Below, in pieces: positions 32,290 to 45,007 of a stretch of DNA of 64,000 nt. Positions within the stretch are counted from its first letter, which is position 1. The number at the start of each line of letters is the position of its first letter. The translations under genes and the position numbers were made by a program. A model generated the notes under the pieces. The model saw only the letters and a program-made list of their open reading frames with translations. It made no database searches and had not been told where the DNA came from. This DNA is from Cryptosporangium aurantiacum. GTDB lineage: Bacteria > Actinomycetota > Actinomycetes > Mycobacteriales > Cryptosporangiaceae. The stretch is taken from assembly GCF_900143005.1 (NCBI RefSeq), contig NZ_FRCS01000015.1:1-64000 (forward strand), written 5' to 3'.

Positions 32290-34743
32290 GTGCTCAGCCC
32301 AGGATCCCGGCTCGCGACGTACGAGGTGCGTAAGCGTCTCGCCGTCGGCGGCATGGGCGAGGTCTACCTGTGCCGGCACCGGTTGCTCGATCGGGACGAC
32401 GCGGTCAAGGTGCTCCGCCCCCACCTCGTCGCCGATCAGGCATTCCGGCGGCGCTTCCTGCGGGAGGCGCTGTCCGCGGCGCGGTTGCGCCACCCGCACA
32501 TCGTCACGGTCTACACCGCCGACGAGGTCGACCGGCAGCTCTACCTGGCGATGGAGTACATCCCCGGCGCCGACCTCGCCGCGATCCTCGACCACGAGCA
32601 GGTGCTCGAGCCCCGGCGGGCGGTGCGCCTGCTCGACCAGGTCGCCGACGCGCTGGACGCCGCCCACCGCCTGCAGATGACGCACCGGGACGTCAAGCCG
32701 AGCAACGTCCTCGTGGAGCGTCCGGGATCCCCCGACACCGATCCGCACGGTCCGCACGGCGGGCCGGAGCACGCCTACCTGGTCGACTTCGGCCTGAGCA
32801 AGAGCCACCAGGCCGTCGATCAGGACATCACGATGACCGGCCAGGTGCTCGGCACCGTGGCGTACATCGCGCCGGAGCAGTTGCAGGGCGCGGTCACCGA
32901 CGGTCGTTGCGACCAGTACTCGCTCGGTTGCATGGCGTACGAGACGCTCACCGGCCAGCTGCCGTTCCAGCGAGAGAACCAGGTCGCCGTGATCACCGCG
33001 CACCTGACCGCTCCCCCGCCGTCCGCGTCCGCCGTCCAGGCATCGCTGTCCCCCGCGGTCGACCGCGTGCTGGCCAAAGCGATGGCCAAGACGCCGCAGG
33101 AGCGGTTCGCGACCTGCAAGGAGTTCGTCGACGCGCTGCGCGCCGCGGTCGAGACCGGTGAGACCACTGTGGTCCAGAAGCCGGCCAGGCGGCTGGAGCG
33201 CAAGACCCCGAGCGGCGCCGAGGCCCGCCAGGAACAGGCCTGGGCGAACCCGGCGAACCAGGGCGCAGCGGTCGTCGCCGACTCCGAGCCCGAGCAGCCG
33301 CCCCTCCGGATCGCGGCGCGGCGTCCGGTCGATCGCACGCCGCCGCCACCGCCGTCGGGCCCGGTCGGTGAAGCCGCGCCGCCGTTGCCGGCCGACCCGC
33401 CGTTGTTGCCGGTCGACAAACCCGTTTCGGACGCTCCGGAGAGCCCCGACGTCGAGGAACCGAAACCCCCGGTGAGCTCCGATCCCGCGGCGCCGCCCGG
33501 GTTCACGCTGCCGGATGACACCCCGTTCGGCATGCCACCGCTGCACGACCTGCCGCCCGAGCGCGGTGGCGCGCCGTACTCACGGCCCGGTGGTCCGCCA
33601 CCCGCGTACTCGTCCCGGCCGGCCGCGACGTCGGGTCCGGCGCCGACGTCCGGTGGTGGCTACCGGTCGTACGCGTCGCAGTACCCCGCCGGTGCGCCGC
33701 TGCCGGATGCCACGCCGACGCCCGGCCGCACGCTGGACAGCCGGCTGTACCTCGCCGTTGTCGGTGGCCCGGACGCCGGACGGTTGGTGCCGCTCCCGGA
33801 CGGCGAGCGCTCGGTGACGATCGGCCGGGTCAGCCTCGGCATCACGGTGACCGGGTGGACCGTCCAGGTCGCCGGTGAGGCCGACGCCCAGGTCAACGGT
33901 GAACCGCTGCACGGCGCCCGGCAGCTGACGCCCGGTGACCTGGTCACCGCCGGGCCGGCGCTAATGGAGGTGCGCTCGGCGCGGCACCTGGCCCGGTTGG
34001 CCCCGAATGCACCGCCGCCCGACCCGGTGACGCTCGACCGGGTCGCGCGCGACCGGCTGGCCGGTGCGGTGCGCGGCCCGCAGCATCCACAGGCGCTGGT
34101 GACCCGGATCGGTTGGTTGGCGCGACGTCCACCGGTGCCGATCGCAGTGCCGTTGGGGAACGCGGGCGGGATCGCGATCCGCGGCCCGCTGCCCGCGGCG
34201 GCCCCGCTCGTGCGGTGGCTGCTCACCCAGGCCGCGGTGCTGCACGACGCCCGCGACCTCTGCCTCGCGGTGTCCGCCGGGCCGACGGACGACGAGCGAT
34301 GGACGTGGGTGTCGTCGCTGCCGCACGCCCGGCCCGCGACGCCGCCGCTGACCGGCCCGCACCTGGCCACGACGCGGGACGGGGCGCTCGATCTGACCGC
34401 CCGGCTCCGTCGGCTGGTCGAGGTGCGGCGCGCCGCCGCAGCCGATCCGCGGGCTCGCCAGCTGGTGGCGCTACCGCGGGTACTCGCCGTGCTCGACGAT
34501 CGGCTGGGCGGCGTGGACGCCGAGTTCATCACCGCGGTCGGCGGCAGCCTGGGCGTACACGTCGTGCGGTTGCTGCCGCCGGAGGCACGGCCCCCGGCGA
34601 GCTGCCGGCTCTGCATCGACCTGGACCCGACCGGGCAGACGCTCCGGGTGTGGGTCGCGGGCCGCAGCGGCTCGCAGAACGGCGTCCCCGACGGCGTCAG
34701 CGCGAGCTACGTCCGAGAAGTAGCCGACCTACTCGCCGATTGA
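32290..34743 (+). CDS. Ser/Thr kinase fused to degenerate FHA and EssC-like module
   Basis: This 817-residue protein begins with a complete Hanks-type kinase domain (about residues 9-290): glycine loop VGGMGEVYL, K40, D134 in HRDVKPSN, D166 in DFG, and APE. A Pro-rich linker follows (about 290-480). Then comes an FHA-like domain (about 485-575, VVGGPDAGRLVPLPDGE) that lacks the Ser-x-x-His and Asn-Gly-Thr signature. The last 215 residues resemble the N-terminal region of EssC/EccC-type FtsK ATPases (IGWLARRPPVPIAVPLG, then RWLLTQAAVLHDARDLCLAV), but no Walker A or B is visible. There is no membrane segment. GTG at 32290 is the first start that keeps the kinase N-terminus. The kinase call is firm; the C-terminal homology is my pattern recognition. 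Confidence 0.82.
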   Translation: MLSPGSRLATYEVRKRLAVGGMGEVYLCRHRLLDRDDAVKVLRPHLVADQAFRRRFLREALSAARLRHPHIVTVYTADEVDRQLYLAMEYIPGADLAAILDHEQVLEPRRAVRLLDQVADALDAAHRLQMTHRDVKPSNVLVERPGSPDTDPHGPHGGPEHAYLVDFGLSKSHQAVDQDITMTGQVLGTVAYIAPEQLQGAVTDGRCDQYSLGCMAYETLTGQLPFQRENQVAVITAHLTAPPPSASAVQASLSPAVDRVLAKAMAKTPQERFATCKEFVDALRAAVETGETTVVQKPARRLERKTPSGAEARQEQAWANPANQGAAVVADSEPEQPPLRIAARRPVDRTPPPPPSGPVGEAAPPLPADPPLLPVDKPVSDAPESPDVEEPKPPVSSDPAAPPGFTLPDDTPFGMPPLHDLPPERGGAPYSRPGGPPPAYSSRPAATSGPAPTSGGGYRSYASQYPAGAPLPDATPTPGRTLDSRLYLAVVGGPDAGRLVPLPDGERSVTIGRVSLGITVTGWTVQVAGEADAQVNGEPLHGARQLTPGDLVTAGPALMEVRSARHLARLAPNAPPPDPVTLDRVARDRLAGAVRGPQHPQALVTRIGWLARRPPVPIAVPLGNAGGIAIRGPLPAAAPLVRWLLTQAAVLHDARDLCLAVSAGPTDDERWTWVSSLPHARPATPPLTGPHLATTRDGALDLTARLRRLVEVRRAAAADPRARQLVALPRVLAVLDDRLGGVDAEFITAVGGSLGVHVVRLLPPEARPPASCRLCIDLDPTGQTLRVWVAGRSGSQNGVPDGVSASYVREVADLLAD

Positions 34744-34790: not shown

Positions 34791-35591
34791 TCAGGCAGTG
34801 ACGAGGCTCTCGAGGCGCTCGGCGACGGCGAGGGCGGTGGCGGGGCGCTCGGTGCGGTCGGGGGCGATCGTCCAGCGGACGATCTCGGCGAGCGAGTCGT
34901 CCAGGCCCGGAGCGATCGTCGGGGGCGACGAGAGCACCTTGCGCAGCGCGAGGACCGGGTCGTGGTCGGGCAGCTCGCCGTGCAGGCCCTGCTGGGTCAG
35001 CGCGTAGTGCAGCGTGACGCCGAGCGAGTACACGTCGCTGGCCCGGGACGGCGGTTCGCCGTGCAGGACATCCGGGTCGACGAACTCGATCGAGCCGAGC
35101 GAGCCCATGCCGGTGAGCGTCATCCCGGGCGCGAGTACCTGGGAGAGACCGAGGTCGGAGAGCTTGCCGCCGTTCGGGTGCAAGAGGACGTTGCCCGGCT
35201 TGATGTCCCGGTGGACGATGCCCGCCTCGTGCAGCGCGTGCGCCGCCCGTGCCGCGTGCGCGACCGCACGGAGTGTGGCCGACTCGTCCAAGATGTACGC
35301 CGGCTCGGCCAGCGAACCGTCCGGCAGGTACTCCATCGAGTAGTAGAAGACGCCACCCTGCTGGCCGGCGTCGTACAGCGTGACCAGGTACTCCGAGCGC
35401 ACCGCGGCGAACGCGGCCAGCTCGCGGGTCGCGCGCCGGAACACCTCCTGCGTGGTGGAGCCGGAGAGCACCTTCACCGCCACCAGCTCGGCCTCCACCG
35501 GCAGCCGGCTCGGCGTCTTGGCGAGGAAGAACTCACCGTGGTTGCCATCGCCCAGCGACCGGACGAACTCGTAATCGGCGATGCCTTCCAC
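34791..35591 (-). CDS. Minimal Ser/Thr protein kinase
   Basis: The protein (266 residues) consists of little more than a kinase domain with no membrane segment or sensor. The glycine loop is LGDGNHGEFFLA, the ATP lysine is in AVKVL, and the catalytic loop is HRDIKPGN. The Mg-binding motif is DLG instead of DFG, and the APE motif reads DPD (EFVDPDVLHG). Those two changes are seen in some active kinases, so activity is possible but not certain. GTG at 35591 is chosen because AAGGAGAGG lies just upstream. It is divergent from the antiporter gene and faces the large fused kinase. Confidence 0.85.
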   Translation of the reverse strand: MEGIADYEFVRSLGDGNHGEFFLAKTPSRLPVEAELVAVKVLSGSTTQEVFRRATRELAAFAAVRSEYLVTLYDAGQQGGVFYYSMEYLPDGSLAEPAYILDESATLRAVAHAARAAHALHEAGIVHRDIKPGNVLLHPNGGKLSDLGLSQVLAPGMTLTGMGSLGSIEFVDPDVLHGEPPSRASDVYSLGVTLHYALTQQGLHGELPDHDPVLALRKVLSSPPTIAPGLDDSLAEIVRWTIAPDRTERPATALAVAERLESLVTA

Positions 35592-35713
35592 GTGCCTCTC
35601 CTTCAACAGTCCGCTTCCCGACGGACCTTCACTCCGGTCGGCCGGCGGTGTGAAACTACCGGCCGGAGCCCGCTCCCAAGGTCGGCTACCGGACACGGAT
35701 GAGGAGCACGCGA

Positions 35714-37714
35714 GTGACTGCGCACGACGTCGGCCTTCTGATGCTAGATCTTGCCTTGATCCTCGTGCTGGCACGGATCGGTGGCTGGTTAGCCCAGAAA
35801 GTCGGCCAACCCCCCGTAGTCGGCGAGATCATCGCCGGTATCGCGCTCGGGCCCACGATCATCGGTCCGCACCTGTCGACGGTACTCGTCCCCACCGACA
35901 TTCGAATCCCACTCTCGGCACTCGCCAACGTCGGCCTCGTCCTGTTCATGTTCATCGTGGGTTACGAGCTCGACCTTCTGCTGATGCGCGGTAAGGAGCG
36001 AATCGCGGTCAGCGTCTCGGTCGCATCGATCCTCTTGCCGTGCGCACTCGGCATCACGCTGGCGTACTGGCTGGCCGACCGGCACAACGTCACCGGCGAC
36101 GACCGATTGCCGTTCGTGCTGTTCATGGGCGCCGCGATGTCGATCACCGCGTTCCCGGTACTGGCCCGCATCCTGACCGACCGCGGCATGCACCGCACAC
36201 GGCTGGGTGGCCTCGCGCTGGCGAGCGCGGCAGTGGACGACGTGCTCGCGTGGTCGCTGCTGGCCGTGGTCGTGACGGTGGCCGGCGCCTCGGCGGACAC
36301 CCAGTGGCACGTTCTGCTGACGCTGCCCTACGTCGCGCTGATGTTCTTCGTGGTGCGTCCGCTGCTGCGTCGTCTGCTGCCGCTGCACGCGAAGGCCGGT
36401 CGGTTGACCCCGGCCCTGCTCGCCGTCGTCCTGATCGGGCTGCTGCTGTCGGCGTACGCGGCCGAGTGGCTGGGCGTCCACGTCATCTTCGGCGCGTTCC
36501 TGTTCGGAACGGTCATGCCGCGGGAGGGCGGCGAGGCGCTGCGCCAGGACATCTTGGAGAGGCTCGAGCAGGTCAGCGTCCTGCTGCTGCTCCCGGTGTT
36601 CTTCGTCACCGCCGGCATCAAGGTGGACCTGCGCAACCTCGGCACCGACGGCCTCGTCGAACTCGGCCTGATCCTGCTGGTCGCGATCAGCGGCAAGTTC
36701 ATCGGCGCGTACCTCGGCGCGAAGCTGCAGAAGGTGCAGTCACGGCAGGCGTTCGCGCTGGCCACGTTGATGAATACCCGCGGTCTGACCGAGCTGGTGA
36801 TCCTCGCCGTCGGTCTGCAACTAGGCATCCTCAACCAGGATCTGTACTCGTTGATGGTCGTGATGGCGCTCGTGACGACCGCGATGGCCGGCCCGCTGCT
36901 CTCGGCCTACTACCCGAAGCGGCGGATCGAGCGGGACATCGCCGAGGCCGAGCGCGCGACGCTCGGTGAGTCGCCGGCGACGAGGGTGCTCGTCGTCGTC
37001 GACGATCCCGCGACGCAGGGCGACGACGTGGAGCTGGCCGGTGCGCTGGTCGGGTCCCGCCGTCCGGCCGAGGTCGTGCTGTCGCGGCTGCTGCCGTATC
37101 GGTCGCCTCAGCTGGAGGTGGGCACCGGGCTCTCCGGTGAGCTGCTGGAGATGACCCGCTCGCTGGAGGAGCTGGAGACGCTGGCCGCCCGCGTCCGGCG
37201 GGACGACGTCCCGGCTCCGGTGCTCTCCCGATTCTCCGACGACGTCGAGCGCGAGCTGGGCGTTCAGATCGAGACGTCCGAACCGGACGTCGTCGTGGTG
37301 CGGGCCGGGGCACACGCGCTGGCCGACCGGGTCGCCGGCGAGCTGGTGACGGTCGGCACGCTGCCGGTGGCGCCGTCGTCGGTGGCCGTGCGGTGGGGCA
37401 CGGACGCCGACGCGACCGCCGCGCTGCGGGTCGGTGCGCTGCTCGCGGTCTCGCGGGGCTTGCCGCTGATCGTCGACGACGGGGAGCGCTCGGGCCGGCG
37501 GGCGGTGGCCGCCGCGGCGGACCTGGCCCGGCACGGCCTGGTGGCGTCGGCGGATCCGGCTCCGGCGGACGCGCTGGTGGTGACCGGGGGTACCGAGGTG
37601 AGCGCCGGGACGCACGTCGCGGTGCGAGCCGCCCGTGACACCGACGCGATGCCGGTGGCGGACTGGGTCGCGGACCTTCCCAACCCGACGGATCGGACGC
37701 CCGTGCTCGCCTGA
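35714..37714 (+). CDS. CPA2-family cation:proton antiporter with C-terminal cytosolic domain
   Basis: The protein (666 residues) has about twelve membrane segments in the first 400 residues. It has the Kef/CPA2 features GQPPVVGEIIAGIALGP at the start and SAAVDDVLAW with the paired Asp residues. VHVIFGAFLFG and MNTRGLTELVIL are also typical. The remaining 240 residues are a cytosolic domain resembling two universal-stress-like repeats (TRVLVVVDDPAT and so on), which could bind a nucleotide. GTG at 35714 is preferred because GAGGAG lies eight bases upstream; ATG at 35699 would add five residues. The transported ion, K+ or Na+, is not determined. Confidence 0.88.
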   Translation: MTAHDVGLLMLDLALILVLARIGGWLAQKVGQPPVVGEIIAGIALGPTIIGPHLSTVLVPTDIRIPLSALANVGLVLFMFIVGYELDLLLMRGKERIAVSVSVASILLPCALGITLAYWLADRHNVTGDDRLPFVLFMGAAMSITAFPVLARILTDRGMHRTRLGGLALASAAVDDVLAWSLLAVVVTVAGASADTQWHVLLTLPYVALMFFVVRPLLRRLLPLHAKAGRLTPALLAVVLIGLLLSAYAAEWLGVHVIFGAFLFGTVMPREGGEALRQDILERLEQVSVLLLLPVFFVTAGIKVDLRNLGTDGLVELGLILLVAISGKFIGAYLGAKLQKVQSRQAFALATLMNTRGLTELVILAVGLQLGILNQDLYSLMVVMALVTTAMAGPLLSAYYPKRRIERDIAEAERATLGESPATRVLVVVDDPATQGDDVELAGALVGSRRPAEVVLSRLLPYRSPQLEVGTGLSGELLEMTRSLEELETLAARVRRDDVPAPVLSRFSDDVERELGVQIETSEPDVVVVRAGAHALADRVAGELVTVGTLPVAPSSVAVRWGTDADATAALRVGALLAVSRGLPLIVDDGERSGRRAVAAAADLARHGLVASADPAPADALVVTGGTEVSAGTHVAVRAARDTDAMPVADWVADLPNPTDRTPVLA

Positions 37715-37805: not shown

Positions 37806-39791
37806 ATGGCGGAATCGAACGGTCCTCCGGTGCCTCCCACGGACGCGTTGCTGCGGCCGGGTGAGCGGCTCGGATGGATCTTCCGTGACCGCAACCTGTT
37901 CCGGCGCCCGTTCGGGCAACCACCGCCCACGATGGGCGAGGTCCCGGCCGACGTGTTGGCTTCGGCTCGCGCCGCGAACCCGCATCTGGTCCGCAACATC
38001 GCGATCGCGGTCCCGGCCGCGGTGGTCCTCAGCTTCATCCTGGTCTGCGGCCTGGCGCTGGGGTCCGGAGGCGACGGTGGCGGCCGGATCTTCCTGCTGA
38101 TGCTGATCGTCGTCGCGCTGGTGTTCGGCGGTGCCGGCGCGCTGGTCTGGCTCGGCGCGCAGCGGGCCCGCTCGGTCGCGTCACGGCCGAACGCGGTGGC
38201 CGCCGAGCAGCGCGCCCGCTTCGACAGCGAACTGGCCGACTGGAGCCGCCGCAAGGCCGAGTTCGACGCCGCCGAGCAACAGCGCAGCGAGCAGCTTCCG
38301 GAGTGGTCACCCGCGATCCCGCCGCCGCACACCCGCCGCATCGACGTGGTCGGCGGCACGCTCTGGGGCTGGGAGGGCCTGCTCACGGTCTTCGGATCAT
38401 CCACACTGGCCAGCGGCGGCCGGCTCACCGTGCTCGACCTGACCGGGGAAGGCGTCTGCCGGGAACTGGCCGAACTCGCGGCCGAGGCCGGCTTCAGCAC
38501 CGACGTCCAGCTGTTCCCGGCCGACTTGCCGACCGCGGACGTCCTGGCCGGGCTCGACCAGCGGCAGTTCGTGGACGTCCTGGTCGAAGCCGTGCACGGC
38601 GGTGACGACGCCGGCGGCACCGATCGGTACGGCCGGGCCGCGGACGACCGGGTGCTCGGCGCCGTCTGTGCGGTGCTCGCGCCGAGCGGCCTGACCGTGG
38701 CACGGGTGCTCGCGGCGCTCCGGGCGCTGCTCGGCGAACCGGCGGGCGGCGACGACGGCCTCTCCGACGCCGAGCGCCGCTCGATCGCCACGGAGCTGTT
38801 CTCCCCGGACTACCGGCGGGAGATCGGGCCGCGGTTGCGGCAGCTGGAGTCGCTGCTGCATCCGCTGGCGCCGTTGGGCACCGTGGCGCAGCCCCGCCCG
38901 GTGGCTCAGCTGGCGTGTGTCGCGATGCTGAGCACCGGCAGCACCGCCCGCGACGAGGTGCTCGGCGATCTGATCGTGCAGCGGCTGACCCGCGGTGCCG
39001 CTGAGGCCGACCAGTCCGGCGGCGGCAGTCCGCGGACGATCGTCGTCGTCGGTGCGGACGAGATCGCCCGCCGGCACCTCGAGCGGCTGTCCGACGTGTG
39101 CGAGCGGCGCGGCGTCCGGCTGGTGTACCTGTTCCGCCACCTGCGGGGGACGTCGCTGCAGGTGCTCGGCGCCGGAGCGGTCGGCGTGATGCGGCTGGGC
39201 AACCACCAGGAGGCCACCGAGGCAGCGGAGTTCATCGGGCGGCAGCAGCGGTTCGTGCTCACCCAGCTCACCCACCAGCTGGGCGGGGCCGAGACGCACA
39301 GCACGGGCGAGTCGGAGACCCGAACCAGGGCCAGCGCGGGCATGCCGTCGATGCGGCGGCCGTGGCAGGCGCTGTCGGGAATGGTGGGGAGCAGCTCACG
39401 CTCGTGGCGCACCACCGCAGGGCACGCCGAGGGCACAAACTGGAACAACGCCGAGATGTACCAGCGCGCGTCCGAGTTCGCGGTGGAGCCCCGCACGCTC
39501 CAGGGCCTGCCCGACTACGCGATGTTGCTGGTCACCGCGGGGCAGCACGGCCCTGCGATCACCGCGGTCGAGTGCAATCCCGACATCGTGTCGCTGCCGC
39601 GGGTCAGCACCGAGCCATTGCCCCCCGGCGCCGCCGGAATTCCGGGTTTCGTCAACCAGCCCTCGGCGATGCTCCCCCAACCGCAACCCGGCGCCGCCCC
39701 GTCCCATCCGCAATCCGGACAGCCCTATCCCGGCCGAATGCCCCCACCGGGCCCGCCGAATTCCTTCCCGCCTGGACCGAGCGTCCGGTAA
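37806..39791 (+). CDS. Membrane protein resembling VirD4/TraG-like ATPases but without a P-loop
   Basis: The protein (661 residues) has an N-terminal cytosolic stretch, two membrane segments (about residues 62-110: AVPAAVVLSFILVCGLAL and LMLIVVALVFGGAGALVWL), and a large cytosolic part. The cytosolic part has the strand and loop order of HerA/VirD4 ATPases: GGTLWGWEGLLTVFGSS at the Walker A place, TIVVVGADEIARRHLERL near Walker B, then VGVMRLGNHQEATEAAEFIG and FVLTQLTHQLG. The lysine of a Walker A motif is missing, so it probably does not hydrolyse ATP. The C-terminal 70 residues are Pro-rich. ATG at 37806 is used; the ribosome site is weak. Its role is unknown. Confidence 0.7.
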   Translation: MAESNGPPVPPTDALLRPGERLGWIFRDRNLFRRPFGQPPPTMGEVPADVLASARAANPHLVRNIAIAVPAAVVLSFILVCGLALGSGGDGGGRIFLLMLIVVALVFGGAGALVWLGAQRARSVASRPNAVAAEQRARFDSELADWSRRKAEFDAAEQQRSEQLPEWSPAIPPPHTRRIDVVGGTLWGWEGLLTVFGSSTLASGGRLTVLDLTGEGVCRELAELAAEAGFSTDVQLFPADLPTADVLAGLDQRQFVDVLVEAVHGGDDAGGTDRYGRAADDRVLGAVCAVLAPSGLTVARVLAALRALLGEPAGGDDGLSDAERRSIATELFSPDYRREIGPRLRQLESLLHPLAPLGTVAQPRPVAQLACVAMLSTGSTARDEVLGDLIVQRLTRGAAEADQSGGGSPRTIVVVGADEIARRHLERLSDVCERRGVRLVYLFRHLRGTSLQVLGAGAVGVMRLGNHQEATEAAEFIGRQQRFVLTQLTHQLGGAETHSTGESETRTRASAGMPSMRRPWQALSGMVGSSSRSWRTTAGHAEGTNWNNAEMYQRASEFAVEPRTLQGLPDYAMLLVTAGQHGPAITAVECNPDIVSLPRVSTEPLPPGAAGIPGFVNQPSAMLPQPQPGAAPSHPQSGQPYPGRMPPPGPPNSFPPGPSVR

Positions 39792-39895: not shown

Positions 39896-40234
39896 ATGTC
39901 GGTGTTCGGGGGGAACAGCGGTTTTGCGCCGCGCCCAGGTACGCAGCACGACCGAGTCGCGATCGCTTCGGCGACCGCCGGAGTGTGCGCTTACGCTATT
40001 CCGCTGGTGAGTGTGGTCGGCGCGGTCACCGCGATCATCACGGGTCACATCGCGGCCCGCCGAACCGCGGCCGGTTCGGAGAGCCGCAGCTTCGCGATCG
40101 CCGGGTTGATCTTCGGCTACAGCTACTTATTCACGCTCGTGACCGGCTTCTGGTACGCGGTGACCGTGTTCAGCATCCGCGGCTGGGGCTGGTTCTCGAC
40201 CGCGCAGACGTGGCTCGACCGCACGACGGGCTGA
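39896..40234 (+). CDS. Small DUF4190-like membrane protein
   Basis: This 112-residue protein has two or three hydrophobic segments (AYAIPLVSVVGAVTAIITGHIA and YSYLFTLVTGFWYAVTVF) around a HIAARRTAAGSESRSFAIAG loop. The IITGHIA...FAIAGLIFGY pattern fits DUF4190, a family of small actinobacterial membrane proteins of unknown function. ATG at 39896 follows GGGGGAGG. It is followed after seven bases by a second protein of the same size and pattern, which suggests they work as a pair. Confidence 0.75.
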   Translation: MSVFGGNSGFAPRPGTQHDRVAIASATAGVCAYAIPLVSVVGAVTAIITGHIAARRTAAGSESRSFAIAGLIFGYSYLFTLVTGFWYAVTVFSIRGWGWFSTAQTWLDRTTG

Positions 40235-40241
40235 GGCGAAC

Positions 40242-40580
40242 ATGTCCACCGTCACCGCGGTCAGCCCGCCGATGCCTGCGCCGATCTTCCGGCCGCCGAC
40301 CAGTCAGGTTGCGATTCTCGCGTTCGTCGCCGCGTTGATGAGTTTCGCCGGCGCCGCCTATGCCGGTCCGTTGACCGCGATCGTCTGCGGGCGAATGGCG
40401 TTGCGGCAAATTCAGCAAGCACCGATCACGGGCCGGGTGCCGATTCGGGGTAATCGTCTCGCCCGCGCCGCGATCGTCCTTGGTTATGTCGGCTTGGCCG
40501 TACATCTACTGGCGACGATCATCGCGCTCACGTTCGCCGTCCTAGTCGCGAACGGCACGATATCCCGCATGGTCTTCTGA
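40242..40580 (+). CDS. Small DUF4190-like membrane protein, second copy
   Basis: The protein (112 residues) has two membrane segments (AILAFVAALMSFAGAAYAGPL and YVGLAVHLLATIIALTFAVL) with a CGRMALRQIQQAPITGRVPI loop and a Pro-rich N-terminus. The pattern resembles its upstream neighbour and DUF4190, although the sequence is divergent. ATG at 40242 lies seven bases after the neighbour's stop. A long AT-rich inverted repeat follows its stop. Confidence 0.7.
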   Translation: MSTVTAVSPPMPAPIFRPPTSQVAILAFVAALMSFAGAAYAGPLTAIVCGRMALRQIQQAPITGRVPIRGNRLARAAIVLGYVGLAVHLLATIIALTFAVLVANGTISRMVF

Positions 40581-40657: not shown

Positions 40658-42676
40658 CTACGGGTTCCGGTGCGACTCGTAGCGGAAGCCGCGGCGGCCG
40701 AAGACCACGCGGGTGCCCGGGGTGAGCGTGACCTTGCGGTGGGGGTCGAGCCGCGTCCAGGCCTCGCTGTTCGGCGGCGCGATGTGTGTCCCGTTCGCGG
40801 ACGCCAGGTCGATCACGTTCACGTCCCAGCCGTCCAGCTCGATCCGGGCGTGGATCCGCGACACGACTCCCTTCGGGTCATCGATGCGCAGCGCCCGCGC
40901 CCGCCCCTGCAGCACCGCGTCGTCCCGTTCCGGCTCCCGGCCGACCACGTAGTCGGTGTCGAGCCGGAACGTCGCGCCGTCGTCGAGCACCAGCAGCCCG
41001 AGCGGCGGCCGCGGACCGGTCCGTGAGACGTGCGTGAGCTGCGCCATCGAGATGCCGCAGACCGCGCAGTACGGCACCCGCGGGTCGTTGAAGTGGTCGT
41101 TCTTGCAGTAGATGCCGAGGACGATCGGCCGCGCGTCGGCCTCCTCGGCACCGTCGGCGGGCACCGGGCCGGGCGGCGGCTGCACGTCGGCCGGCGGGAG
41201 CGGGCCGGACGTCTGCGTCCGCTCCGATGAGTCCGCCTGGTCGCCGATGAGCAGGACGGCCTCGAACGGCGCCGCCGGGTCGAAGCCCCCGACGCCCTGC
41301 GCGGCCGGTGGCGCGGACGACGGCTGCAGCGACGGGTCCGGAACCGGCTGGTCGGGCAGCACCGGGGCGGGGAGCTGCCCCTCGCGCGGCGCGGGCGGCG
41401 CCGGCGGTTCCTCGGCCGCGACCGGCGGAATCGGCCGGTCGTCGAACGACGGCATCGAGGACGGCGGCGGAGGTGGCGGTGGCGCGTCGAACGACGGCGG
41501 TGCGTCGAACGAGGGCACAGGCGGCGGCGCGTCGAACGACGGCGGCGGTGTGTCCCACGACGGCACGCCGGACGGCGGCGGCGCGTCGAACGACCCGGGC
41601 GGAGGCGGCGGCTCGTCCACCGGTGCCGACGGCGCCGGTGCGGAGAACGACGCGGGCGGCTCGTACCCGCCCCGCTGCACGGACGCCGCACCACGCGACG
41701 CTGGTTCCGGCGGCTCCGGGGTGTCCATCGGCACCGGCGGCGGCGACACGTCCAACAGCGACGCGCGCGGCACCGGAGCGACCGCGGAGTCGTCCGCGTA
41801 GGGGTCGAAGGCCTCGGTGCGCTGCAGCGGGTCCCGGTCCTCCGGCTCCGAGTCCGGGACCGCGGCGAGCGGCACGGACGGCGCAGGCGGCGCTGACGGC
41901 GCTGCGGGCTCCACCGGCGGCACGGCGGCCACCGACGGCGAGGGCGGAACCGGCGCAGGCGCTGCCAAATCCGCCGACGGAACCGGCAAAACCGGCGGCC
42001 CGGACCGCGACGGCACAGCGGACGGCGACGGACCCGACAGCCCAGACCCCGACAGCCCAGACCCCGACGGCCCAGACCCCGACGGCCCGGATCGCGGAGA
42101 CACCACCGGTGCCGCCGACGAGACCGGCCGCGTCGGCGCCGACGGCACCGACGGCACCGGCGCAGCCGTCACCGCCGACGGCACCCCGAACACGAACCCA
42201 CCGGCCCGCACCACACCCGCGTCCAGCCGCGACCACGGATCCGGCGCAGGAACTCCGCTCAGCGTGTCGAGCGCACCGCGGATCACCCGCGCCGGCGCCG
42301 GAATCATCCGGTCGACCCAGGTCACCGCGTCCCGACCGTCGAGCACCAGTTCGCCGTCGTCGGTCACCACGGAGACCTGCGCGTCGCCGTGCACGATCAC
42401 CGCGACGCCGTCGCCGACCGGCCCGAACGCCGCGAGCGGCGGGAAGTCGGCGTCCTGGGCCGAGATCAGCAGGCTGGCCAGCCGCCGGCCGAGACGCCGC
42501 CCGTCGCCGCCCGCAGCCGACGCGATCGCGTCCAGCACCTCGGCCGTACGGTCGTCGTCGCCCTCGGGTGCGCCGTACAGGAGGACCAGGTCGCCGTACC
42601 GGGCGAGCAGGCCGGAACCGGCGACCGGCGCGAGCGCCCGGTCGTCCGGTTTGTCATCGGTAGTGCCTGTCGTCAC
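40658..42676 (-). CDS. FHA-domain protein with long Pro-rich linker
   Basis: The protein (672 residues) has an uncharacterised N-terminal domain of about 150 residues (LLARYGDLVLLYGAPEGDDD onward) and a very long Pro/Ser/Ala-rich linker. A Cys-rich stretch follows (IYCKNDHFNDPRVPYCAVCG, possible zinc knuckle). The C-terminal FHA domain (about residues 565-655) has intact phospho-threonine-binding motifs GREPERDD, SRIHARIE and SANGTHI. GTG at 42676 overlaps the stop of the membrane-protein gene, with GGGAGG upstream. It is the last gene of a three-gene operon. It may read phosphorylation by the nearby kinases. Confidence 0.85.
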   Translation of the reverse strand: MTTGTTDDKPDDRALAPVAGSGLLARYGDLVLLYGAPEGDDDRTAEVLDAIASAAGGDGRRLGRRLASLLISAQDADFPPLAAFGPVGDGVAVIVHGDAQVSVVTDDGELVLDGRDAVTWVDRMIPAPARVIRGALDTLSGVPAPDPWSRLDAGVVRAGGFVFGVPSAVTAAPVPSVPSAPTRPVSSAAPVVSPRSGPSGSGPSGSGLSGSGLSGPSPSAVPSRSGPPVLPVPSADLAAPAPVPPSPSVAAVPPVEPAAPSAPPAPSVPLAAVPDSEPEDRDPLQRTEAFDPYADDSAVAPVPRASLLDVSPPPVPMDTPEPPEPASRGAASVQRGGYEPPASFSAPAPSAPVDEPPPPPGSFDAPPPSGVPSWDTPPPSFDAPPPVPSFDAPPSFDAPPPPPPPSSMPSFDDRPIPPVAAEEPPAPPAPREGQLPAPVLPDQPVPDPSLQPSSAPPAAQGVGGFDPAAPFEAVLLIGDQADSSERTQTSGPLPPADVQPPPGPVPADGAEEADARPIVLGIYCKNDHFNDPRVPYCAVCGISMAQLTHVSRTGPRPPLGLLVLDDGATFRLDTDYVVGREPERDDAVLQGRARALRIDDPKGVVSRIHARIELDGWDVNVIDLASANGTHIAPPNSEAWTRLDPHRKVTLTPGTRVVFGRRGFRYESHRNP
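41440..41600. repeat. Pro/Asp-rich degenerate tandem repeat coding region
   Basis: Within the FHA-protein gene, repeats related to GGCGGCGCGTCGAACGACGG encode SFDAPPP-like units on the minus strand. They spread over about 160 bases and form a flexible linker. Confidence 0.6.
42034..42096. repeat. 15-bp tandem repeat encoding Ser-Gly-rich units
   Basis: Four near-identical copies of a CCCAGACCCCGACAG-like unit encode SGxSG units in the linker of the FHA protein. The copy number could vary between strains. Confidence 0.65.
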
Positions 42677-43116
42677 ACGAACCTCCCACCCCGGAACCGC
42701 CAGTGGATCGAGAACACCCGCATCGGGCCGTTCGCGAACACCCAGACTGCCACCCAGACCAGGATGAAGAGAATCCAGTACGAGAGTGACTGCAATCCGG
42801 TGAGACCTTCGATACCCGGAACGACGCCGGCGAGCAACAGCGCCCACACCAGCAGACCCTCGTTCAGGAACGTGAGCAGGCCGAACAGCGTCGGCCAATC
42901 CTTCTCCCACCGCCACTGCATGAGGAAGTGGTACAGCAGCTCCCAGAGAATGCCGATCACGGTGACCGTGACCAGCACCGTGAACGTGATGCGGTACTTG
43001 CTACCGAAACCTACGCCCAGCGGAAGCAGCGGCGTGACGAACAGCGTCACCAAGCCGCCGATGACCAGCGTGAACACGATTCGGCTCTGGATCCGACCCC
43101 ACAGCGTGGGCAGCAT
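42673..43116 (-). CDS. Hypothetical multi-pass membrane protein
   Basis: This 147-residue protein has four probable membrane segments (FTLVIGGLVTLFVTPLLPLG, FTVLVTVTVIGILWELLYHF, LLVWALLLAGVVPGI and YWILFILVWVAVWVFA). It ends in a basic tail (RFRGGRFV). I do not recognise the family. ATG at 43116 starts 27 bases after the stop of the flavoprotein gene, and its stop overlaps the FHA-protein start. It may anchor the two soluble partners at the membrane. Confidence 0.75.
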   Translation of the reverse strand: MLPTLWGRIQSRIVFTLVIGGLVTLFVTPLLPLGVGFGSKYRITFTVLVTVTVIGILWELLYHFLMQWRWEKDWPTLFGLLTFLNEGLLVWALLLAGVVPGIEGLTGLQSLSYWILFILVWVAVWVFANGPMRVFSIHWRFRGGRFV

Positions 43117-43143: not shown

Positions 43144-44880
43144 TCAGATCTGCTGGTTCCGGGCCCATTTGAGCCACTGGCTCACCGACCGGCCGGGCCC
43201 GATGCGCTTGCAGAACCCGCGCCGGGCCAGGTCGTCGGCGATTTCCTGCGCGGCCACCTGCAGGCCGAGGAACGTGTCGACGCCCGGGAAGTATCCGCCC
43301 AGCGTCGGCGACCCGGACGCGTAGATCCGGCCCTCGCCGTTCGCGGTTCCACGCAGCTCGAACGTCCGCTCGACGTCGAGCCGCCCGACCGGGTTGCGTC
43401 CGACGCCGCTGTGGTCCATGAGGTCGGCCAGCAGCCGGTGCTCGCGGACATCGGCCTCGAGACCGGTGCAGTCGATGATGAAGTCGGCCGGGATGTCCGT
43501 GATCTGCCCGTTGCCGAGCTTGACTCGGCTGAGCGTCCGGCCGTCCGGACCGAGGTTCACGGCCTCGGCCGTGCCTTCGAGCGTGTGGTACCAGTTGCCC
43601 TGGCGTCCGGCGTTCATCTGCGCCTGCCAGCGCCGCCGCCACGGGGTGTTGGTGCCGCCCATGTCCTTGTACGCCTGCGCCCGCTCGGCGCCCTCCAGCT
43701 TGCGCATCCGCGCCTTGAGCTGGCCGCCCCATACCGACTTCGGGTAGTTGAAGCCCTGGTAGGCGAACCCGTTGCTGCCCGGGCGGCGGAGCCAGGCGTT
43801 CTTGCCGTGCGGGCCGCGCACGTACGTCCGGAACAGGTGGACGATCTGCGTCTGCAGGCCGAACTTCTCCCGGTCGTCCATCAGCCGCTGGAGCACGCGG
43901 GACGCCACGATGCCGCCGCCGCGCACCAGCACCGTGCCGGGGCGGGACTTGAGGAACGTGTAGACGTGCTCGTGGTCCTCGTAGGCGTTGACCACGTGGT
44001 GGAAGTCCTGGTGCTTGGTGCGGAACTCCTGCAGTTCGGGCAGGAACTTCAGGCCCGGGTAGCCGATACCGACGTGCACGTACTGCGACCGGTAGGCGAT
44101 TCGCTTCGTCTGCGCGGCGCCGTCGGGTGGCGTCAGGATCGTGTAGTAGCCGCCACCGTGACGGCGGCGCACCATCCGCACCTGGCCCTTGACGAGCATG
44201 TCCCACCAGCGGATGCGCTTGGCCTCGCGCTCCAGGTTCTCGAACACCATGCCGGCGCGCGGGGTGTAGAAGTCCGCGAACATCGGCTCGACGAGCACCT
44301 GCCAGAGCGCCTTGAGTGACTTGTCCTTCATCGCTTCCTCGACCGCGTAGGACGGGAAGCCCCAGATGTTGTCCGGACGGGACGCCGAGTCCGACCGGAT
44401 GCGCTCCGGGCGCGGGATCTGCGAGACCCGGGTCAGGTATTCGTAGGTCTGCCACGGGGTGTCGATGTTGGACAGGATCCGGATGCTCTCGGTCGGGACG
44501 CCCGCGATCCGCAGGTAGTCCACGGTCACGAACGATCCGATACCGCCACCGATGGTGAGGAACGGGACGTCGATGACCGGGATGCCCGCCGCCGCCACTA
44601 ACTGGTCGGACCAGATGTCGGTCTCGATCAGCTGCGGCGTGAGATCACCACCACCGGCCGGGTACGACTGCTGCGCGGGGTACGACTGCTGCGCGGGGTA
44701 CGACTGCTGCGCGGGATATGACTGTTGCGCGGGGTACGACTGCTGCTGACCCGGGGCCGAAGACGGGAACACCGACGTCGGCGGCAGCCGACGTGCGTCC
44801 CCGGAGGGAGGACCCGCCGCATACCCGGGGCCAACACCACCACCATGGTTCGGCGTCTGACCGGGGTACGGACTGCTCAT
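43144..44880 (-). CDS. Flavoprotein/NAD(P)-binding oxidoreductase-like protein with repeat N-terminus
   Basis: The protein (578 residues) begins with a low-complexity Gly/Pro/Gln tail that includes five QQSYPA repeats (about residues 45-75). A dinucleotide-binding fold follows (FLTIGGGIGSFVTVDYLRIAG). Later features are a second fold-like GTVLVRGGGIVASRVLQRL, a TGLEADVREHRLL closing segment, and SGSPTLGGYFPGVDTF. It looks like an FAD-dependent oxidoreductase of the lysine/ornithine monooxygenase superfamily, but I cannot assign a reaction. ATG at 44880 has GAGG upstream. It is the first gene of an operon with a membrane protein and an FHA protein. Confidence 0.7.
   Translation of the reverse strand: MSSPYPGQTPNHGGGVGPGYAAGPPSGDARRLPPTSVFPSSAPGQQQSYPAQQSYPAQQSYPAQQSYPAQQSYPAGGGDLTPQLIETDIWSDQLVAAAGIPVIDVPFLTIGGGIGSFVTVDYLRIAGVPTESIRILSNIDTPWQTYEYLTRVSQIPRPERIRSDSASRPDNIWGFPSYAVEEAMKDKSLKALWQVLVEPMFADFYTPRAGMVFENLEREAKRIRWWDMLVKGQVRMVRRRHGGGYYTILTPPDGAAQTKRIAYRSQYVHVGIGYPGLKFLPELQEFRTKHQDFHHVVNAYEDHEHVYTFLKSRPGTVLVRGGGIVASRVLQRLMDDREKFGLQTQIVHLFRTYVRGPHGKNAWLRRPGSNGFAYQGFNYPKSVWGGQLKARMRKLEGAERAQAYKDMGGTNTPWRRRWQAQMNAGRQGNWYHTLEGTAEAVNLGPDGRTLSRVKLGNGQITDIPADFIIDCTGLEADVREHRLLADLMDHSGVGRNPVGRLDVERTFELRGTANGEGRIYASGSPTLGGYFPGVDTFLGLQVAAQEIADDLARRGFCKRIGPGRSVSQWLKWARNQQI
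44660..44749. repeat. 18-bp tandem repeat, five copies
   Basis: The unit GGGTACGACTGCTGCGCG occurs three times exactly, then once with three silent changes, and once with a different end. On the minus strand it encodes QQSYPA units of the flavoprotein. Identity of the first three copies suggests recent expansion. Confidence 0.85.
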
Positions 44881-45007
44881 AACCCTCACCATCTCCTCGC
44901 AGCACAGGAACCGCAGCGGACGCCGTCCGCCGCGACGGTGAGGTTAGGGCCACGACCTGCCGCTCCACGGGGCTGTGACGCGAATACGACTCACCCCGTG
45001 GAACGGA

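Follow-up and report, generated by a model that had tools for sequence, protein, structure and literature searches.

What is a piece of a protein-export motor doing at the end of a signalling kinase? The question is raised by an open reading frame (ORF) at positions 32290-34743 of a 64,000-nucleotide stretch of Cryptosporangium aurantiacum DNA (the window, from contig NZ_FRCS01000015.1), which is predicted to encode a Ser/Thr protein kinase followed by a proline-rich linker, a degenerate FHA domain, a short arm and the DUF, a degenerate ATPase domain located ahead of ATPase 1 in the EccC/EssC proteins of type VII secretion systems (T7SS). By our sequence analyses, the protein is a naturally occurring fusion in which a signalling kinase is joined to the FHA and pseudo-ATPase parts of a T7SS motor, which would stand in place of a membrane sensor. 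The ORF looks like a genuine gene, with a GC content of 0.90 at codon position 3 and 0.55 at position 2. In the window, and in all but one of the five orthologs, the longest ORF begins at the homologous codon; in the exception, L044, it extends 27 codons further upstream and was trimmed for comparison. L056, found by a scan of genome contigs, is the reverse complement of L044 and adds no ortholog.

The C-terminal module resembles FHA-FtsK secretion ATPases

The C-terminal 333 residues were aligned by hhalign with the actinobacterial FHA-FtsK family, a member of which (the L121 protein) is EssC/EccC-like by NCBIfam, with a probability of 99.9% and an E value of 4.9e-35 over 332 columns. The alignment is colinear: the FHA domain comes first, the membrane segment is spanned by a gap, and the arm, the DUF and the end of the chain follow. 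By sequence, the protein is thus a kinase joined to an EssC-type ATPase minus its N-terminus, its membrane helices and its three ATPase domains. In all 30 ATPases compared (28 FHA-FtsK proteins from 29 stretches, L155 having been dropped by a GKS filter, and two EccC proteins of the host), the match to the module is located 69-161 residues N-terminal to the first Walker A. No PF01580 (FtsK/SpoIIIE ATPase) match was found in the fusion protein, whose chain ends after the DUF, and no Walker A is present in the module in the alignment of the six fusion sequences. By hydropathy, 26 of the 28 FHA-FtsK proteins have a transmembrane helix upstream of the DUF, and the window protein has none. The fusion shows that the DUF can exist outside an ATPase.

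The relationship was recovered from several directions. Searched alone against the host genome, the window protein finds the two host EccC proteins at E values of 3.7e-6 and 6.5e-5, in both immediately ahead of the first FtsK match, and its best non-orthologous matches in related genomes are mostly ORFs of about 1450-1700 amino acids, those inspected being FHA-FtsK proteins. The DUF matched EccC at about 2e-11 vs 1e-20 to 1e-26 for FHA-FtsK proteins. The NCBIfam profile of EccCa, TIGR03924, matched residues 616-816 with an E value of 3.6e-14 along positions 182-377 of its 673. The score, 52.5 bits, falls well short of the curated cut-off (509), which was set for the 673-position profile of which about one-third is present; annotation with TIGR03924 would therefore not report the fusion, as expected of a fragment. 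In the Protein Data Bank (PDB), a profile of the six orthologs found T. curvata EccC (4nh0, E 1.1e-5) and four ESX-3 EccC3 sequences (8.9e-5 to 1.4e-4), followed by two EccC5 sequences at 0.012 and 0.052, with unrelated proteins appearing from 0.031 and 13 rows in all up to E 10. Pfam gave no match to the C-terminal half, FHA included.

The FHA assignment comes from a profile of the six sequences, which matched the FHA domains of FHA-FtsK proteins with E values down to 2.6e-11 and 7.5e-11, 13 of the 28 passing 0.01, and the best of 600 shuffled control sequences reached 0.044. Against the two host EccC proteins, the same profile gave nothing up to E 10. The phosphothreonine loop of the FHA domain is absent in the four members of the genus; L044 and L045 carry a longer loop. 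Two AlphaFold2 (AF2) models, each built from two sequences with L056 as the one ortholog, had mean predicted local distance difference test (pLDDT) values of 42.6 and 36.3, the FHA part of the first lying mostly at 50-70. When this part of the weak model was submitted to Foldseek, the 50 best of 274 rows were FHA or FHA-like proteins or complexes holding one (best E 2.0e-4), some of them assigned by entry title only. We infer the fold of the DUF from its homology to solved EccC chains and not from the AF2 models.

The kinase half is predicted to be catalytically complete, with no sign of a pseudokinase: K40, E59, H132-R133-D134, K136, N139 and D166-F167-G168 are invariant across all six fusion sequences. 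A transmembrane helix was not predicted by hydropathy in five of the six fusion kinases, and L044 gave a weak peak of 1.76. Two other identities were considered and set aside. A PASTA/PknB membrane kinase was ruled out by the missing transmembrane helix and by the NCBIfam profile PknB_PASTA_kin, which covers residues 11-316 only and scores 293.6 vs a cut-off of 450; an EssB/YukC pseudokinase was ruled out by the intact catalytic residues and, again, the missing helix. PADLOC matches were set aside as generic kinase-domain matches.

The preliminary description of this locus had proposed a kinase with Hanks motifs K40, D134 and D166, fused to a degenerate FHA domain and an EssC/EccC-like pre-ATPase region. 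These motifs are present and invariant in the six sequences (Pfam Pkinase E 2.4e-43), and the C-terminal resemblance is borne out by the 332 columns of the hhalign alignment, in which FHA is followed by the pre-ATPase domain. Profile comparison returned neither an empty result for EssC/FtsK-type proteins nor a plain FHA match, either of which had been named as telling against the module assignment, and the assignment survives. The loss of the phosphopeptide-binding residues of the FHA domain was also correctly seen, the loop being deleted in the window and in the genus. Of the two Walker motifs, both described as lacking, A is missing, its position being occupied by GPLPAAAP, and a Walker-B-like LDD is invariant.

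Distribution and selection

We then searched for the fusion in two overlapping and non-exhaustive genome samples. In the order sample, 6 of 397 genomes carry it (four from the genus itself, G004 from the same family and G008 from another family), all at E values of 1.5e-157 or below, the next match being at 5.7e-24; in the class sample, the window's own genome was the only one of 394. A search with the kinase domain in 61 genomes returned the same six at 1.7e-110 or below, followed by the next match at 1.6e-72. The fusion thus spans three genera and two families. A tree built from 36 DUF domains places the six fusions in one clade (97/98; 98% of bootstrap trees) that joins the 28 FHA-FtsK proteins, the two host EccC proteins standing apart (100/100, midpoint root). 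The family of G008 is represented by three genomes, of which one carries the fusion. Another genome of that family, G035 (74% complete), holds two short DUF matches, L194 and L195, with broken frames and no adjoining kinase match; small ORFs nearby look WXG100-type or secretion-like by eye. Among the titles and abstract openings found by full-text searches of Creative Commons-licensed PMC articles, there was no report of a kinase-FHA-DUF fusion.

The ratio of nonsynonymous to synonymous substitution rates (dN/dS), estimated for the six pairs of the four genus members, was 0.12-0.19 for the kinase, 0.09-0.22 for the FHA domain, 0.10-0.17 for the arm and DUF, and 0.19-0.65 for the linker. The module is maintained, with purifying selection on the FHA domain and the DUF.

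A conserved gene cluster around the fusion

The fusion gene is flanked on one side by SurA-like and MazG genes, and on the other by a second Ser/Thr kinase (STK2), a Kef-type antiporter, a membrane protein (at 37806), an FHA adaptor and an oxidoreductase (Table 1).

Table 1. Features of the fusion gene and its neighbours, in window coordinates.
Feature	Position	Strand	Evidence and remarks
Fusion gene: Ser/Thr kinase, linker, degenerate FHA, arm, EccC/EssC DUF (degenerate ATPase)	32290..34743	+	817 amino acids, GTG start
Protein kinase domain, residues 11-275	32320..33114	+	Pfam PF00069 E 2.4e-43; K40, E59, D134, N139, D166
Pro-rich linker, residues 291-484	33160..33741	+	fast evolving (dN/dS 0.19-0.65); no transmembrane helix by hydropathy
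Degenerate FHA domain, residues 485-562	33742..33975	+	phosphothreonine loop deleted; profile match to FHA of FHA-FtsK
Post-membrane arm, residues 563-617	33976..34140	+	paired by hhalign with the part of FHA-FtsK ATPases lying between the membrane helices and the DUF
DUF (degenerate ATPase domain preceding ATPase 1 in EccC/EssC), residues 618-817	34141..34740	+	TIGR03924, PDB 4nh0, EccC3 chains
Degenerate Walker A position GPLPAAAP, residues 632-639	34183..34206	+	placed by alignment with EccC and FHA-FtsK DUF domains
Walker-B-like strand VLAVLDD, residues 731-737	34480..34500	+	L735, D736, D737 invariant in six sequences
Second Ser/Thr kinase, STK2	34791..35774	-	Pfam E 8.7e-31; longest ORF, true start probably further in
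Kef-type cation/proton antiporter	35699..37714	+	Pfam PF00999 E 1.3e-59; linked in G008, G056, G042
661-residue membrane protein	37806-39791	+	no convincing Pfam or NCBIfam family
Two adjacent small DUF4190-like membrane proteins	39896-40234, 40242-40580	+	only the second above the Pfam cut-off
FHA adaptor, Cys-rich (zinc-ribbon-like, by eye) stretch before canonical FHA	40658..42916	-	Pfam FHA E 6.7e-8
Oxidoreductase (our own reading)	43144..44892	-	no Pfam match at E 1; QQSYPA repeat near N-terminus

Within the fusion-bearing genomes, the cluster is kept to different extents. In G001, the cluster is the same except that two additional genes separate the kinase from STK2, G002 has retained the oxidoreductase and adaptor inverted and more distant, and G003 has the cluster split over two contigs. 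The stretch of G008 holds the kinase, antiporter, adaptor and oxidoreductase with no STK2 match. In G004, the fusion kinase lies at a contig end adjoining the SurA-like and MazG genes, a 41% identical adaptor lies beside mfd on another contig, and the antiporter was not found at 1e-80. Overall, the antiporter is near the kinase in five of the six fusion genomes.

The same order of kinase, STK2, antiporter, adaptor and oxidoreductase recurs in G056 and G042, which belong to two other families; the outer flanks differ, no SurA-like, MazG or Mfd match being found in these two 18-kb stretches. Their cluster kinases (639 and 542 amino acids, respectively) carry a transmembrane helix, with hydropathy peaks of 2.84 and 3.61, and no FHA-DUF module. 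As this cluster holds membrane-anchored kinases without the module, an exchange is the reading we draw, and it suggests that the module replaced the membrane-anchored sensor half within a conserved cluster.

Other observations concern the neighbours themselves. Relatives of STK2 are found at the same place in G056 (57% identical) and G042 (54%). STK2 is 98.5% identical between the window and L041 and the fusion kinase 90%, so the latter is less conserved; the longest ORF of STK2 runs into the beginning of the antiporter gene, which lies on the opposite strand. The antiporter has a long C-terminal tail. Genomes of four families have it in a cluster together with a kinase and an FHA adaptor, a hint that ion exchange may be under phospho-control. 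The adaptor contains a long proline-rich linker and has matches in 18 of 61 relatives at 1e-20, and a relative of the 43144-44892 protein is found in the same cluster of G008, G056 and G042.

Relation to type VII secretion

To what could such a module be connected? The host (G000) carries two complete-looking ESX loci, whose EccC proteins are encoded on C2 and C7, both with EccB, EccC and EccD above the NCBIfam cut-offs and a Pfam WXG100 match; a mycosin-like protease, below cut-off, was found in the one locus tested for it. Some 8-12 kb past the mycosin-like gene of that locus are two further kinase genes (G000 C2:715415-719145).

Kinases recur near FHA-FtsK ATPases of other genomes. Among the 29 stretches (6.7 to 18 kb) around FHA-FtsK genes, eight hold a kinase matching the window kinase at 1e-20 or below. 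With 47 kinase-domain matches in its 9.58 Mb, the host genome averages about 0.08 per 16 kb, and about 2 of the 29 stretches would be expected to hold one if the other genomes match the kinase density of the host. In three stretches, L121, L152 and L162, genes for PP2C, a kinase, FHA-type proteins and the FHA-FtsK ATPase stand in a row, and each has a protein related (1e-15 to 3e-19) to the C-terminal part of the FHA adaptor of the window. Querying with the full-length adaptor recovered L121 (1e-13) and a 213-residue protein of L162 (3e-13), a 714-residue protein of L162 gave a weak, low-complexity match, and L152 was not listed at 1e-6. WXG100-type genes were matched in the L121 and L152 stretches and not in L162. 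L121 matches the queries ftsk, fha239, pp2c and wxg_a by construction, these being its own genes; Pfam on L121 supported the kinase and PP2C, left WXG100 below cut-off and gave nothing for the 239-residue protein read as FHA.

Published work offers precedents for both parts of the module, as described in passages of the papers cited here. The DUF of EccC5 is a degenerate ATPase fold which does not bind ATP and may mediate contacts between protomers (PMC11154593). The FHA domains of YukB and EssC are devoid of phospho-binding residues, and the pseudokinase YukC is bound by the FHA region of YukB independently of phosphorylation (PMC9600267), while the FHA2 of EssC is required for association with EssB (PMC9436818). 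Clusters of several T7SS subtypes with separate kinases, phosphatases and FHA proteins have also been described, with phosphorylation control raised as a possibility (PMC11217815, in the passages available). The module may plausibly tether the kinase to a secretion machine.

Proposed function and alternative explanations

We propose that the FHA-DUF module serves for docking and assembly. Its FHA domain, blind to phosphothreonine, would pack on the kinase domain in cis, independently of phosphorylation, much as the FHA of EssC/YukB does on EssB/YukC in trans, and the non-ATP-binding DUF would join DUF rings, either those of the host EccC ATPases or its own homo-oligomer. The assembly state would then control activation of the kinase and bring it to its substrates, and the canonical FHA adaptor encoded at 40658-42916 would be the likely phospho-reader. 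That the module was swapped for the sensor half and serves docking or assembly in this manner, by cis FHA-kinase packing and by its DUF on EccC or on itself, is a reading to which we give about an even chance. The fusion is a hint that phosphorylation may be coupled directly to protein export in soil-type actinobacteria, and as a soluble-looking protein it is suited to testing FHA-kinase and DUF-DUF contacts.

Several observations weigh against this proposal. The orthology of the module-less cluster kinases is positional and backed only partly by best hits, since the kinase domain of G056 (L187) finds the fusion first in G008 and third in G000, behind two paralogs; moreover, the cluster of G056 and G042 exists without the module at all. 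The fusion contig (C15) has no PF01580 match, the ESX loci being on other contigs, and no WXG100 was found among the neighbouring ORFs given to Pfam, some small ORFs lying outside that scan. In five of the six fusion genomes, none of the five candidates scored for each was an FHA-FtsK match at 1e-15, and the docking partner would therefore have to be EccC, the DUF of which is more distant. The AF2 models are poor (pLDDT 42.6 and 36.3), leaving the fold of the DUF without structural confirmation, and the binding partner of the module is so far only proposed.

Alternatively, the FHA and DUF domains may have been co-opted only as a cytosolic scaffold, which by self-assembly or ligand sensing activates the kinase by proximity, with the antiporter/STK2/adaptor cluster as its pathway and no contact with a T7SS. 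Such a scaffold agrees with a cluster that is kept without the module in G056 and G042, with the missing FHA-FtsK matches in five fusion genomes, with scanned neighbours devoid of WXG100 and an antiporter near the kinase in five of six, and with the hexamerisation of the DUF, which is a published hypothesis (PMC11154593, in the passages available). However, the core motifs of the DUF are common to the module and the secretion ATPases, the host has two ESX loci, and weaker DUF matches lie within long ORFs of G001, G002, G004 and G008. We consider the scaffold the most serious competitor, although somewhat doubtful. The opposite extreme, in which the kinase is a dedicated T7SS subunit that enters mixed EccC rings through its FHA-DUF module as a regulatory protomer, unites in a single chain the kinase-fold/FHA interface that is divided between EssB and EssC in T7SSb, and phosphorylates the machine or its cargo from within the complex, appears to us unlikely.

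The preliminary description had also suggested that the module may be a pseudo-ATPase partner of the membrane protein at 37806, and this suggestion fares badly. Within the genus, the two genes are neighbours (on separate contigs in G003), and of the 6 genomes out of 81 with matches to the membrane protein, four bear the fusion. Its comparison with the FHA-FtsK family by hhalign, however, gave a probability of 4.8%, with no FtsK relationship, and the occurrence patterns are mismatched: the membrane protein was not found in the fusion genomes G004 (a fragmented metagenome-assembled genome) and G008, and it is present without a fusion match in G018 (43% identical) and G035 (partial). On these comparisons, it does not appear to be an obligate partner of the fusion, and we hold the pseudo-ATPase partnership to be very improbable.

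Even less can be said for a decaying relic, i.e., a chance fusion to a functionless ATPase fragment. Walker A and the phosphothreonine loop are indeed lost, but the dN/dS of the module is 0.09-0.22, it has been kept in three genera and two families, and the same degeneracy is usual for the DUF of EccC and the FHA of YukB/EssC in the passages available of PMC11154593 and PMC9600267, so that we regard decay as scarcely credible. Finally, a compositional or chance resemblance in a GC-rich protein, to which the missing Pfam match of the C-terminal half, the 52.5 vs 509 bits of TIGR03924 and the passing of 0.01 by just 13 of 28 FHA-FtsK proteins might point, can practically be dismissed in view of colinear significant matches in 30 of 30 ATPases, the hhalign E value of 4.9e-35 and an FHA profile that beats its shuffled controls.

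Comparison with known systems

The closest likeness is to the FHA-FtsK ATPases of T7SS (EssC, YukB, TsdC/TseC and the actinobacterial FHA-FtsK proteins), which have FHA, arm and DUF in the same order; unlike them, the fusion is without the N-terminal ~100 residues, the membrane helices and ATPase domains 1-3, and has a kinase with complete motifs attached. With the EccC proteins of ESX systems (T7SSa; T. curvata 4nh0, EccC3, EccC5), it shares a homologous DUF, but in the host EccC proteins the FHA domain was not found and there is no kinase, and the DUF of the fusion groups with FHA-FtsK. Its kinase domain is 42% and 40% identical to those of the PknB/StpK7-like membrane kinases of G056 and G042, which stand in the same cluster, whereas these have a transmembrane helix and no FHA-DUF. 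A further parallel is offered by TscD/TsdD/TseD (T7SSc-e) and EssB/YukC (T7SSb), in which, as described in passages of PMC11217815 and PMC9600267, a kinase fold likewise stands beside a T7SS ATPase, FHA-bearing in T7SSb, d and e; these are separate proteins, unfused to the FHA-DUF of the ATPase, and EssB is a pseudokinase, whereas the fusion carries a kinase with complete motifs and the FHA-DUF in one chain.

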